Shown here piece by piece: positions 4,088-26,952 of a DNA stretch of 64,000 nucleotides. The stretch comes from Pseudoselenomonas ruminantium. GTDB lineage: Bacteria > Bacillota > Negativicutes > Selenomonadales > Selenomonadaceae. The DNA lies in NCBI RefSeq assembly GCF_900113715.1, contig NZ_FOQK01000016.1:1-64000 (forward strand). Reading direction: 5' to 3'. Every line of letters starts with the position of its first letter. Position 1 is the first letter of the stretch. Made by a program: the position numbers and the translations under genes. Below the pieces are notes generated by a model that saw nothing but the letters and a program-made list of their open reading frames with translations, did no database searches and was not told the origin of the DNA.

Positions 4088-4104
4088 AATAGTAAGTAAA
4101 AGAA

Positions 4105-4262
4105 TACCGACTCCGAGCGAAAATATCTAAGGCATGAGCAGATACGCTATGATATTGAGCCGGGGCCCCGGGGGAAACGCCGGGACCTTCCCATTTTGAA
4201 AAGGAGTTCAATGCTGCAGCGCAGGTGGAGACTATCCTTTTCGTAGGGGATAGTCTTTTTTG
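4105..4262 (+). promoter_or_regulatory. Moco (molybdenum cofactor) riboswitch with intrinsic terminator
   Basis: The 240-base gap before the cofactor genes holds a GC-rich, strongly paired RNA. It begins CTCCGAGC at 4111, contains the hairpin CCCCGGGGGAAACGCCGGG near 4166-4184, and ends in GCGCAGGTGGAG. Directly after comes a terminator, GACTATCC (4230-4237) pairing with GGATAGTC (4248-4255), followed by a T-run. The shape and position fit the Moco RNA motif known upstream of moa/moe genes. An aptamer followed by a terminator suggests transcription attenuation when cofactor is plentiful. A tungsten-cofactor variant is possible. The class is judged from features and context, not from a covariance search. 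Confidence 0.7.
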
Positions 4263-20206: not shown

Positions 20207-20242
20207 CAAAAACAGGGACTATCCATTTCGGATAGTCCCTGT
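20207..20242 (-). terminator. riboswitch terminator upstream of thiED
   Basis: On the minus strand ACAGGGACTATCC pairs with GGATAGTCCCTGT, followed by a T-run. It lies between the TPP aptamer and the thiED start, the usual expression platform for transcription termination. Confidence 0.88.
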
Positions 20243-20257
20243 GAATCTTTTTGCATA

Positions 20258-20342
20258 CTTTCCTACGTTGGCATTATCCAAATCAGGTGCGGTCGAAGTG
20301 CATAACTTCCTCTCAGCCTGTCTGCAGGCTCCCGTGTATCGT
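20258..20342 (-). promoter_or_regulatory. TPP riboswitch (THI element)
   Basis: Minus-strand sequence contains the conserved THI-box parts ACGGGAGCC, CAGGCTGAGAGGAAG, ACCTGATTTGGATAATGCC and AACGTAGGAAAGT in the right order. Bound thiamine pyrophosphate should favour the terminator at 20207-20242 and shut off thiED. Confidence 0.95.
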
Positions 20343-20560
20343 TTTGCCTCTACTTTACGCCGCGCGGGGATTTTTGTCAAGGCAGGCTTAGCCGACGTAT
20401 GTGTCAAGAAGTTCTCGGTAAAATTCCCCCGTATTATAAAGATATGCTTGTTATTTAATGATTAAAGATATAATTTAAGATTACTTCCGGGCCAAGATCA
20501 GATCCGACATATTGCCATTGGTGGAATTGATGGTTTATAACATGAATGACGTGTTTATGT

Positions 20561-20595
20561 AAAAAGGACTGCCGCATGAGCAGCAGTCCTTTTTG
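20561..20595 (-). terminator. terminator of the first small-peptide transcript
   Basis: AAAAAGGACTGC at 20561-20572 pairs with GCAGTCCTTTTT at 20583-20594, giving a T-run on either strand. For the minus-strand peptide gene at 20643-20726 it lies about 50 bases after the stop. A second hairpin (CCGCAGG/CCTGCGG, 20596-20618) sits in the 3' untranslated part. Confidence 0.75.
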
Positions 20596-20642
20596 CCGCA
20601 GGGTGAACAGTCCTGCGGCGCGGCTTTTACGTGGTGCGTTGG

Positions 20643-20726
20643 TTAGCTGTCAAGCCATTTGCAGAGGTAGTGGCTGACTATGCCTGCAAAAACAGAAACC
20701 ATGAAGTTTGCGAGATTTTGGTCCAA
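20643..20726 (-). CDS. small hydrophobic peptide, putative type I toxin (copy 1)
   Basis: A 27-residue ORF with a TTG start at 20726, preceded by GGGAGG eight bases away. The core VSVFAGIVSHYLCKWLD is a single membrane-spanning segment ending in charged residues. It matches the second copy at 26693-26773 in the pattern VSV-x-AG-(I/V)-x-S-x-Y-x-CKWLD. Tiny peptides ending in CKWLD-like sequence are common in Firmicutes, and some small single-helix peptides of this kind are type I toxins; that role is inferred here. The gene has its own promoter (20769-20798), terminator, and a divergent small RNA carrying sequence antisense to its start region. No similar annotated gene name is claimed. Confidence 0.7.
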   Translation of the reverse strand: MDQNLANFMVSVFAGIVSHYLCKWLDS

Positions 20727-20768
20727 ATGTAACACCTCCCTCTAGCCGGAGGTTCCGCACCGCGTATT

Positions 20769-20798
20769 AGTATAGCATGAATTGACGGCAAGCGTAAA
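20769..20798 (-). promoter_or_regulatory. promoter of small-peptide gene, copy 1
   Basis: On the minus strand TTTACG (20798-20793), an 18-base spacer, then TATACT (20774-20769). It interleaves with the oppositely oriented small-RNA promoter at 20782-20811. The second copy at 26826-26855 has the same arrangement. Confidence 0.6.
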
Positions 20799-20811
20799 TC
20801 CGAGGTATAAT
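20782..20811 (+). promoter_or_regulatory. promoter of antisense-type small RNA, copy 1
   Basis: TTGACG (20782-20787), an 18-base spacer, TATAAT (20806-20811). This is a near-consensus sigma-A promoter and stronger than the opposing peptide promoter, as expected if the RNA is made in excess. Confidence 0.75.
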
Positions 20812-20817
20812 AAAGGC

Positions 20818-20884
20818 AAGCTAATGGAGTTTGCGAGATTCCAAATGCACCGAAGCTGTGGCCTGAACAACCACAGCTTTTTTC
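20818..20884 (+). ncRNA. small RNA, putative antitoxin of copy 1
   Basis: About 65 bases from the start expected of the promoter above to a terminator AAGCTGTGG...CCACAGCTTTTTT (20853-20882). It contains AGTTTGCGAGATT (20828-20840) and CCAAATG (20841-20847). The same two blocks occur in the same order at 20705-20717 and 20723-20729, across the peptide gene's TTG start. The RNA could therefore pair with the peptide mRNA by 13 plus 7 bases and block its translation. No ORF is evident in it. Confidence 0.65.
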
Positions 20885-20896
20885 GTGGGAAAATAG

Positions 20897-20936
20897 GGGC
20901 TGTTGCACGTAATGTGACGTGCAGCAGTCCTTTTTC
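20897..20936 (+). terminator. terminator-like hairpin
   Basis: GGCTGTTGCACGT pairs, with G-U and one mismatch, with ACGTGCAGCAGTCC, then TTTTT. GCAGCAGTCCTTTTT is identical to bases 20581-20595, so this may be a duplicated terminator from a lost or scrambled module copy. Confidence 0.55.
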
Positions 20937-20944
20937 ATATACAA

Positions 20945-20980
20945 AAAGATAATCCCGAGGCTTGAGTGCCTCGGGATTAG
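20945..20980 (-). terminator. intrinsic terminator of the DASS transporter gene
   Basis: AATCCCGAGGC pairs with GCCTCGGGATT; on the minus strand it is followed by ATCTTTTTG. It lies about 80 bases after the transporter stop. Confidence 0.75.
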
Positions 20981-21057
20981 GTGTAGAATTTAGTGGTGTC
21001 CAGTAGTTCTACCTTTTTCTATTGCAAACAATTGACCGAGAAATATTTTACACTAAG

Positions 21058-22602
21058 TTAGCCGACGACCCAGCTGACGAAGTAGATAACCAGCGGAATC
21101 GTGACACAGGCGATGCCGACGACGTCGATGATGACACCTGTGTGGATCATCTTAGTGATGGGGATATAGCCTGAGGCATAGACAATTGCATTAGGCGGTG
21201 TCGATACTGGCAGCATGAAACCGAGTGATGCCGCCAGCGCAATGCCGACCGATACCGGAACGGGGCTAAGGCCAGCCGATACGGCTGCTGTGATGGCCAG
21301 TGGGCCAATCATGTTCGTAGCTGCTGTATGGCTCGTGAGCTCAGAGAGCAGCAAGGCCATGACGGAGAAGATCGCGACCATGCCAACCTGTGACGGAGCA
21401 CCGCCCATCGAGCTGACGATGAGGTCACCGACCCACTGCGAAAGGCCGGTCTTGTACATCATGCCACCCATGGCAAGACCACCGCCGAACAGGATCAGCG
21501 TGCCCCATTCGATACCTTCCATGGCCTCCTGCCATTTGAGCGTGAACTGGCGCTTTTCGAAGTTGACCGGCAGGACAAACAGGATAAGAGCACCGGCCAT
21601 GGCAGCGACGGCTTCCGGGAACAGCCTGTTGTACATCTTGAGTGTCGGATCGGTGCTGCCAAGGGCGATCGAGAGGATGCCCGGCGTTACCCAGAGGGTA
21701 ACGGCCACGATAAAGCAGAACAATGTGTTCTTCTGTGCGAGTGTCCAGCCGCCAAGCTCGGCAAGTTTGTTCTTGATGAAGGTATCCGCGCCATCGATGC
21801 GCTCGACATCAGCTGGGAACATGCGCGACAGTACGAAGGCTGCGATGACGAAATAGACGACCATCGCGATGAAGCCCCAGGTCATCCACTCAAAGAACGA
21901 TATATGGATGTCACACATTTGGTCAAGGAAACCGAGCATGATGAGGTTCGGCGGTGTGCCGATAGGCGTCAATACGCCGCCAATCGAGCAGGAGTAGGCC
22001 GTCATCAGCATGAGGCCCGTAGCGTATTTGTATTCGTGCAGGTCGATCTCACGGCCATTGGCGGCAAACATCTCCTTGATGGACGTCAAAAGGCCCAAGC
22101 AGATCGGGAACATCATGGCTGCCGTAGCCGTGTTGCTGACCCAGCCCGAGCAGAGCGCGGCGGCAAGGCCGACGGCCAGGAAGATACGCTTGGGGTTCGA
22201 GCCGACCCAGGAGCGCGAGAGCAGCCAATAGGCGAAGCGCTTGTCGAGGCCATGGGTCATCATGGCCTTGGCCAGGATGAATCCACCCATGAACAGGAAA
22301 ATCATCGGGTTCGCAAAGGCGGCAAACGCAGTGCCGACTGGCACGACGCCAGTCACGACCGCCAATGTCGGCCCGATGAGCGAGGTGACCGGAATGGGTA
22401 CGGGCTCTGTGATCCACCATATAGCCACGAGTACCATGATTGCCAGCAGCTTATGGGCTGGTACAGTCAGTCCTGCAATCGGGGTCAGAAAGACCAAGAG
22501 TGCGAGGATGGGTCCGCCGAACAGGCCGATAGTCCGGCGCTTGCGGTCAAAGGCCTGCTCGGCCCGCTTGACGGCAAGTGCTTCTTTACTCATCTTGTCC
22601 AA
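21058..22602 (-). CDS. DASS-family Na+:dicarboxylate symporter
   Basis: A 514-residue membrane protein of the divalent anion:Na+ symporter (SLC13/CitT) family, with eleven or more hydrophobic segments. Diagnostic features are TEPVPIPVTSLIGPTLAV, the SNT motif in GWVSNTATAAMMFP, TPIGTPPNLI, and the second SNT-like half-repeat SHTAATNMIGPLAI with FMLPVSTPPNAIVYASGY. The two half-repeats bind substrate and sodium. Likely substrates are succinate, malate or related C4 acids, suitable for a fermentative anaerobe. The TTG at 22602 is chosen because AAAGGAGG lies ten bases upstream; an ATG at 22593 is too far from it. A possible structured leader lies at 22800-22966. Confidence 0.88.
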   Translation of the reverse strand: MDKMSKEALAVKRAEQAFDRKRRTIGLFGGPILALLVFLTPIAGLTVPAHKLLAIMVLVAIWWITEPVPIPVTSLIGPTLAVVTGVVPVGTAFAAFANPMIFLFMGGFILAKAMMTHGLDKRFAYWLLSRSWVGSNPKRIFLAVGLAAALCSGWVSNTATAAMMFPICLGLLTSIKEMFAANGREIDLHEYKYATGLMLMTAYSCSIGGVLTPIGTPPNLIMLGFLDQMCDIHISFFEWMTWGFIAMVVYFVIAAFVLSRMFPADVERIDGADTFIKNKLAELGGWTLAQKNTLFCFIVAVTLWVTPGILSIALGSTDPTLKMYNRLFPEAVAAMAGALILFVLPVNFEKRQFTLKWQEAMEGIEWGTLILFGGGLAMGGMMYKTGLSQWVGDLIVSSMGGAPSQVGMVAIFSVMALLLSELTSHTAATNMIGPLAITAAVSAGLSPVPVSVGIALAASLGFMLPVSTPPNAIVYASGYIPITKMIHTGVIIDVVGIACVTIPLVIYFVSWVVG

Positions 22603-26692: not shown

Positions 26693-26773
26693 TTAGAGTC
26701 TCTTATCCAGCCATTTGCAGATGTAGTAGCTGGTTACGCCTGCCAGGACAGAGACTATAAATGATTCGAACAA
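26693..26773 (-). CDS. small hydrophobic peptide, putative type I toxin (copy 2)
   Basis: A 26-residue ORF with a TTG start at 26773 and a perfect AAAGGAGG six to seven bases upstream. It encodes VSVLAGVTSYYICKWLDKR after FESFI, a single hydrophobic helix with a basic end. It is a paralogue of the 27-residue peptide at 20643-20726: the same VSV-x-AG...Y-x-CKWLD pattern, the same TTG start, the same flanking promoters and small RNA. Outside the peptide core the two loci differ in DNA sequence, so this is not a recent duplication. The toxin role is inferred from this architecture. Confidence 0.7.
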   Translation of the reverse strand: MFESFIVSVLAGVTSYYICKWLDKRL

Positions 26774-26825
26774 GTCTATGCCTCCTTTCTCTTTTTTCTG
26801 GGAGAAAGGTACACACGGCAACGAT

Positions 26826-26855
26826 ATTATAGCATAGCTTGACTTTTGGTGTAAA
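26826..26855 (-). promoter_or_regulatory. promoter of small-peptide gene, copy 2
   Basis: On the minus strand TTTACA (26855-26850), an 18-base spacer, TATAAT (26831-26826). Spacing and overlap with the opposing promoter match copy 1. Confidence 0.65.
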
Positions 26856-26866
26856 ATTGATATACT
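26839..26866 (+). promoter_or_regulatory. promoter of antisense-type small RNA, copy 2
   Basis: TTGACT (26839-26844), a 16-base spacer, TATACT (26861-26866). The -35 of the opposing peptide promoter lies inside this spacer, exactly as in copy 1. Confidence 0.7.
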
Positions 26867-26872
26867 AAAACC

Positions 26873-26938
26873 AGCTAAATGATTCGAATAAAGCTATGCG
26901 AAAAAACCGTAGGGAGTGGTTACCCTGCGGTTTTTTCT
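26873..26938 (+). ncRNA. small RNA, putative antitoxin of copy 2
   Basis: About 65 bases ending in the terminator AAAAAACCGTAGGG...CCCTGCGGTTTTTT (26901-26934). It carries AAATGATTCGAA (26878-26889) and CTATGC (26894-26899). Both are found in the same order at 26759-26770 and 26776-26781, over the peptide's TTG start. It can thus pair with the peptide mRNA start region in trans. Its terminator also faces the end of proC. Confidence 0.65.
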
Positions 26939-26952
26939 GTATGCGAATATTT

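Follow-up and report, generated by a model that had tools for sequence, protein, structure and literature searches.

The window, a stretch of 64,000 nucleotides of Pseudoselenomonas ruminantium (contig NZ_FOQK01000016.1, positions 1 to 64,000), carries a small module of two genes placed back to back: a putative toxin open reading frame (ORF) on the minus strand and, on the plus strand, the predicted gene of a small antitoxin RNA (sRNA). We refer to this module as copy 1 and to a second, similar module further along the window as copy 2; the parts of both are given in Table 1. All the elements named in the preliminary description, namely the 27-codon ORF with its TTG start, the terminators, the divergent promoter and the RNA of about 65 bases, lie where that description had placed them. 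The toxin and sRNA promoters of copy 1 overlap at 20782-20798.

Table 1. Parts of the two modules and of the element that carries copy 1, in window coordinates.
Feature	Position	Strand	Remark
Element of 661 bp	20397-21057		Insertion sequence (IS) ends, no transposase gene; carries copy 1
Copy 1, toxin mRNA terminator	20561-20589	minus	
Copy 1, mRNA 3'-UTR hairpin	20595-20619	minus	Loop TGTTCA at 20609-20604
Copy 1, CGCACC directly 3' of stop codon	20633-20638	minus	Partner of mRNA 5' end
Copy 1, putative toxin ORF, 27 codons, TTG start	20643-20726	minus	MDQNLANFMVSVFAGIVSHYLCKWLDS
Copy 1, matching repeat across toxin start	20705-20729	plus	13 bases, 5 extra, 7 bases
Copy 1, strong Shine-Dalgarno ahead of toxin ORF	20733-20740	minus	GGGAGGTG
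Copy 1, 5' hairpin ACCTCC...GGAGGT	20734-20753	minus	Covers Shine-Dalgarno; fold prediction
Copy 1, toxin mRNA 5' end GGTGCG	20756-20761	minus	Predicted partner 20633-20638; fold prediction
Copy 1, best toxin promoter TTTACG-18-TATACT	20769-20798	minus	9/12; TG ahead of second hexamer
Copy 1, sRNA promoter TTGACG-18-TATAAT	20782-20811	plus	11/12, sigma70-like; TATAAT at 20806-20811
Copy 1, predicted antitoxin sRNA, about 65 nt	20818-20883	plus	Start placed from the promoter
Copy 1, sRNA pairing segment	20824-20851	plus	Both repeats and flanks
Copy 1, sRNA terminator	20853-20883	plus	
Copy 1, sRNA terminator loop TGAACA	20864-20869	plus	Putative kissing loop
Copy 2, putative toxin ORF, TTG start	26693-26773	minus	LFESFIVSVLAGVTSYYICKWLDKRL
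Copy 2, repeat across toxin start	26758-26781	plus	
Copy 2, sRNA promoter	26839-26866		
Copy 2, repeat inside its sRNA	26876-26899	plus	
Copy 2, sRNA terminator	26901-26936		

Exactly two copies of the 13-mer AGTTTGCGAGATT are present in the window, one at 20705-20717 and one at 20828-20840, and CCAAATG stands 3' of each (20723-20729 and 20841-20847), so that the earlier claim of a pairing over 13 + 7 bases between sRNA and mRNA is borne out; five extra bases separate the two blocks on the mRNA side only. Alignment of the start region with the upstream sequence extends the match by four pairs on one side and by three plus a G-U on the other, and gives copy 1 a repeat score of 35, against 29 at the 99.9th percentile of mispaired loci. 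Simpler counts, all of them weak controls, gave 4 matches to the 13-mer at up to two mismatches (2.18 expected) and, in a simple scan of 20400-21060, 3 promoter-like (1.3 expected) and 4 terminator-like sites (0.5 expected). No Rfam family attains its gathering score within the module or in any of 20 relative loci; elsewhere in the window a TPP riboswitch (20242-20345, minus strand) and a molybdenum/tungsten riboswitch (4099-4222, plus strand) exceed theirs.

Copy 2 has the anatomy of copy 1 but a different repeat sequence, its own two repeats being 88% alike. Elsewhere in the genome, contig 22 has another unit with its repeat upstream, and contig 10 has one that seems to have decayed; a peptide match on contig 39 was rejected, as it is weak, lies within a longer frame and has a score of 23 for its own repeat, below the 27 obtained with another locus. 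Three units of the genome are mutually specific by predicted interaction energy, the own sRNA-mRNA pairs reaching -40.5, -29.3 and -42.2 kcal/mol and the six foreign pairs -12.2 to -20.9 kcal/mol. Each copy has its own repeat, which would insulate the copies from one another.

Relatives were gathered with the peptide or its profile from the same genome, the genus, the family Selenomonadaceae (own family), public species genomes and viral contigs. The family profile matched in 81 of 121 own-family genomes (E 0.01), and the viral contigs yielded 46 loci with relatives. The public species genomes gave at least 593 matched stretches, of which 470 of those listed encode a relative and the best 80 were kept; another 80 own-family stretches were chosen by place. 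The collection came to 296 units, four of which were dropped for having fewer than 230 bases upstream; 260 were distinct, and the merging of near-copies left 208 clusters, 104 of them own-family, 67 from the public genomes (best 80 of at least 470) and 37 viral.

Among the 104 own-family clusters, 28 have an upstream repeat of the locus's own start region (score of at least 24), where mispaired loci lead one to expect 1.0; the figures are 2 of the 67 public-genome clusters (0.65 expected; best 80 of at least 470) and 1 of the 37 viral clusters (0.36 expected). The spacing is constant in 27 of the 28 own-family loci, with L240 outside the usual range. Our list of divergent loci held 28 entries, 27 own-family and one viral (L168), and the viral one was later left out. 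Among the remaining 27, 13 have an sRNA-strand promoter of at least 10/12 (0.7 from shuffles) and 22 one of at least 9/12 (4.0 from shuffles), the -10 box lies 3-14 nt ahead of the repeat in 24, and a terminator-like hairpin follows by rule in 23. The repeat sequence varies from locus to locus, and each of the 27 sRNAs tested has its own mRNA as its best partner, with a mean energy of -37.3 against -18.0 kcal/mol; viewed from the mRNA side, only 13 of 27 have their own sRNA as the top partner. The enrichment of the upstream repeat, the promoters and the own-best pairing together argue for the earlier view that the locus is a type I toxin-antitoxin module whose RNA is divergent. By eye, a short AGCTA stretch recurs at the 5' end of divergent sRNAs, just before the pairing segment (L017, L013, L056).

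The predicted toxin mRNA of copy 1 has a folding energy of -82.3 kcal/mol (z -4.96, with none of 200 shuffles as low). Within its Shine-Dalgarno hairpin, six of the seven bases examined have pairing probabilities of 0.94-1.0 and the first one of 0.02, and the 5' GGTGCG is predicted to pair with the CGCACC after the stop codon at a probability of 0.98-1.0. Of 204 clusters, 104 have an exact complement of at least six bases between the 5' end and the region past the stop codon, where 33.8 would be expected; among the 28 listed divergent loci (27 own-family and one viral) there are 18 such cases. In copy 2 this exact stem measures only four bases, and in energy the own and mispaired combinations differ only in the mean (-15.9 vs -14.1). 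Self-folding is likewise predicted for the 5' half of the sRNA, and this speaks against a simple open seed.

A second contact between the two RNAs is suggested by their loops. In copy 1 the sRNA terminator loop TGAACA is complementary to the TGTTCA loop of the mRNA 3'-UTR hairpin, and the predicted probability of being unpaired is 0.97-1.0 for the former and 0.99-1.0 for the latter. When hairpins were chosen automatically, a loop complement of at least six bases appeared in 7 of the 25 divergent loci used (2 of the 27 were skipped, having no hairpin) against 0.29 expected, and the mean complement was reached by none of 50,000 permutations; an earlier form of the test gave 6 of 27 against 0.35 expected. 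A looser test was weaker (23 loci, p 0.00035, the own pair being best in only 2), and it was this test that found the loops of copy 2, TGGTTA at 26917-26922 and TAACCA at 26661-26656 on the minus strand, which the automatic choice had missed; the automatic counts were retained as they stood. In par_pAD1, according to PMC7472228, complex formation begins at the complementary loops of a shared terminator. The divergent pair lacks a shared terminator, yet has a putative second RNA contact through a separate 3'-UTR hairpin.

In most relatives from Clostridia, viral contigs and plasmids the repeat lies downstream of the toxin, which corresponds to a convergent layout like that of par_pAD1/Fst. Among clusters without an upstream repeat, a downstream repeat (score of at least 26) is found in 59 of 65 public-genome clusters (0.88 expected; best 80 of at least 470), in 33 of 34 viral clusters (0.46 expected) and in 47 of the 75 other own-family clusters (1.0 expected); in all three groups the downstream stretch searched can extend into the next unit in tandem arrays, as it does for L205. 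Layout classes were assigned with a threshold of 24 on a tighter core. Of the 104 own-family clusters, 26 are divergent and 51 convergent on this basis, 26 have neither repeat, 1 is incomplete and none has both. The first unit of L264 is only provisionally among the convergent ones, since it matches the sRNA of the unit that follows it, in an array whose units are divergent. Seven genus codes of the family include divergent units. The 67 public-genome clusters (best 80 of at least 470) comprise 59 convergent, 1 both, 6 neither and 1 incomplete, and the 37 viral ones 34 convergent, 1 neither and 2 incomplete. Convergent sRNAs have promoters of at least 10/12 in 79 of 144 cases against 2 of 144 after shuffling, and the median distance from -10 box to repeat is 10 nt, like that of the divergent ones. 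Over both layouts the duplexes contain 143 gaps on the mRNA side, of which 44 fall at +4 or +5 relative to the start codon as assigned, and 66 on the sRNA side; 58 of 170 alignments have no mRNA-side gap.

The plasmid relatives of Waltera, Ligilactobacillus and Enterococcus faecium have downstream repeats scoring 37, 39 and 40 with upstream scores of 14-15, and the repeat of the Megamonas funiformis relative scores 36 downstream and 23 upstream. Across an evenly drawn set of genomes of the phylum the peptide occurs in 6 of 199 (E 1e-5), two of which belong to the same genus as the window; the loci examined in the other four were convergent in three cases (one an array of four), and the one locus examined in the fourth yielded no unit.

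The window peptide itself reaches no Pfam or NCBIfam cut-off; it does not match the NCBIfam Fst model (NF033608) and scores 14.6 bits against the Clostridioides difficile type I toxin model NF047374 (cut-off 60). Weak matches of its relatives point to Ldr, Fst and the C. difficile type I toxin. The best family member reaches 23.4 bits with Pfam Ldr_toxin (cut-off 27), and 9 of 16 members match NCBIfam CD_typeI_toxin at E up to 1 (best 9.9e-05, 22.7 bits, cut-off 60). The Megamonas relative, which ends in CKWLDSNKTKN and is annotated as Fst family, passes the Fst cut-off (29.2 vs 26). Weak Pfam matches to a holin (Phage_holin_3_3) and to other families were discarded, all being below cut-off, as was a relative of solved structure, for which the only two chains up to E 10 were both photosystem PsbX (E 1.6 and 1.9). 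The SVFAG of the copy 1 peptide is an instance of SxxxG (the P/D/S/TxxxG helix motif; some relatives have SxxxS), and Trp 24 is nearly invariant; the copy 1 tail consists only of LDS, and the tails of many relatives are more charged. The signature of the Fst/Ldr superfamily includes SxxxG and Trp (PMC7472228).

We suggest that copy 1 is very probably a chromosomal type I toxin-antitoxin module with the RNA logic of par_pAD1/Fst, in which the antitoxin gene is placed divergently. Like par_pAD1/Fst of the Enterococcus plasmid pAD1, as described in PMC7472228, the module has direct repeats common to mRNA and sRNA at the translation start, a Shine-Dalgarno within a 5' stem-loop (here by prediction), an mRNA 5' end sequestered by intramolecular pairing (predicted for copy 1) and the SxxxG motif in the hydrophobic helix of its peptide. 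A Trp stands after that helix, as in the family, ahead of a copy 1 tail of only LDS. The loop contact through the sRNA terminator is shared in modified form, seen here as complementarity and with a separate 3'-UTR hairpin as the mRNA partner. It differs from par_pAD1/Fst in its divergent, overlapping promoters, in its separate terminators without a shared bidirectional one, and in a peptide that stays below all model cut-offs. We call the module par/Fst-like, and not a canonical par locus, because the convergent order was looked for and is not the order found here. Ldr/Rdl of Escherichia coli also encodes a small peptide with a hydrophobic helix and a Trp, its regulation being described as hok/sok-like in PMC7472228, and the three characterised C. 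difficile type I pairs overlap convergently and have toxins of 34 to 59 residues (PMC6563280). Selenomonas, Veillonella and Lachnospir- are absent from the wording of the Fst/Ldr review (PMC7472228). Searches for type I systems in Negativicutes, Selenomonas or Lachnospiraceae, for bioinformatic surveys, for Ldr/Fst in Clostridia and for divergent promoters with Fst found no paper with such a module in its title or the beginning of its abstract, and the letters CKWLD nothing related, in a literature of which the subscription part is thinly covered; this is weak evidence of novelty.

Under this par/Fst-like reading, the two overlapping back-to-back promoters would produce a toxin mRNA of about 200 nt and an sRNA of about 65 nt. 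The mRNA would be inert at first, with the 5' hairpin covering the Shine-Dalgarno and the 5' end paired just past the stop codon. The two RNAs would probably first meet through the sRNA terminator loop and the 3'-UTR hairpin loop, after which the 5' half of the sRNA would pair with the end of the Shine-Dalgarno, the start codon and roughly codons 1-8, blocking translation and leaving a short mRNA bulge at codons 2-3. Were the sRNA lost faster than the mRNA, the 27-residue peptide would be made and would presumably be toxic through an action on the membrane. The anatomy of the module, the complementarity, the locus specificity and the existence of two layouts can be read from the sequences directly, and the mRNA fold is predicted. 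To the preliminary description we add the loop-loop complementarity, an mRNA predicted to block itself, and the relatives with a downstream repeat.

It is also conceivable, though unlikely, that the peptide is a small membrane protein with a benign role, held under sRNA control by the same RNA circuit. In favour of such a role, the only known deletion phenotype of Fst/Ldr systems is plasmid loss according to PMC7472228. The distribution of the relatives speaks against it, as they occur on plasmids (matches, a good many of them weak, in 117 of 72,556 records at E up to 1) and at the 46 viral-contig loci, and so does the fate of the module within the genus, where relics appear to lose toxin expression. 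At the copy 1 site of G015 (relic L323, contig 55) positions 20404-20705 are missing, including most of the toxin, and the sRNA sequence is kept, with three substitutions in 20706-20899; at the copy 2 site of G021 positions 26782-26939 are missing, including both promoters and the sRNA.

A 9-bp duplication, TTAGCCGAC, borders the 661-bp element that carries copy 1 on both sides (20388-20396 and 21058-21066), and genome G008 has the site without the element. The ends of the element resemble those of a 1,470-bp insertion sequence of G016 (93% over 54 and 81% over 58 bases), which encodes a UPF0236 protein (PF06782), a group that we take to be ISLre2-type transposases. Elsewhere in G008 and G018 the module recurs over 333 and 337 bp at 97.9 and 96.7% identity, and nothing around copy 1 in the window matches the remainder of these 3-kb loci. 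The preliminary description had held that relatives lacking a conserved RNA copy of the start region would count against it; these two copies in other genomes carry zero substitutions in the pairing segments or loops. Beside the module, at 20895-20993, lies a dispersed repeat of about 100 bp, which occurs at least five more times in G018 and is also present in many other genomes of the genus. At the copy 2 site of G015 (L328) and G008 (L329) a different small hydrophobic ORF, LFISKILLELLVSIIGSILGTLILQMLGL, replaces copy 2. It has no NCBIfam match, and in its G008 copy the start region recurs downstream with a score of 27; it may perhaps represent another toxin type with a convergent layout.

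In the E. coli systems ZorO/OrzO and DinQ/AgrB the sRNA gene is divergent and the complementarity in trans is short. The window module shares both properties, and to this extent the likeness to these systems drawn in the preliminary description stands, but the nearest known relative is par_pAD1/Fst; unlike in ZorO/OrzO and DinQ/AgrB, the pairing here spans the start codon and is joined by a putative second contact between loops. The shared gene order and short complementarity could be taken to mean that a system of this type, with its divergent trans-acting sRNA, arose independently of par/Fst, which we consider quite improbable, as the convergent relatives have the same peptide family, repeat position and promoter-to-repeat spacing, and one relative, that of Megamonas, exceeds the Fst cut-off. 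Least credible of all is the view that recombination left the upstream repeat behind as a scar with no function at the RNA level: duplication can create repeats, and relics do occur in the genus, but the geometry is constant in 27 loci of differing sequence, promoters exceed those of shuffles, a terminator-like hairpin follows by rule in 23 of 27, and there is a separate loop-loop complement.

Returning to the par/Fst-like reading, most relatives of the toxin have the RNA gene downstream and pointing back, and hence the circuit appears to have been rearranged in evolution. The distribution of the two layouts suggests that the divergent one is derived from the convergent one. A tree (118 columns, 170 rows) is poorly resolved, with 10 layout changes of which at least two are forced by well supported branches, and it was set aside as a judge between one and several origins of the divergent layout. 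One tandem array, L338 on contig 23 of G321, contains four convergent units spaced 392-402 nt from one another, and each of its sRNA genes is located between the toxin to which it belongs and the toxin that follows. Since a convergent tandem array holds a divergent pair between neighbouring units, the loss of its outer halves would yield the divergent layout, and this is perhaps how it arose. On balance we favour the view that in Selenomonadaceae the antitoxin gene of a par/Fst-type system switched from a convergent, terminator-sharing to a divergent, non-overlapping position, with both RNA contacts kept in sequence, and that the trans-acting antitoxins of the copies became fitted each to its own mRNA.

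If this proposal is correct, the layout described as conserved in par/Fst loci would be dispensable for the RNA mechanism, and the loop contact and the start-codon contact could persist once the two genes no longer overlap. Permutation of tandem arrays would then be a simple route by which the gene order of a module may change. Roughly two dozen distinct RNA-controlled toxin loci would be added in Selenomonadaceae, and these would form a natural collection in which to study the evolution of antisense specificity, the opening codons of each toxin serving at the same time as an address code. Trans-acting antitoxins fitted to their own mRNAs would let the copies diversify side by side in one genome.
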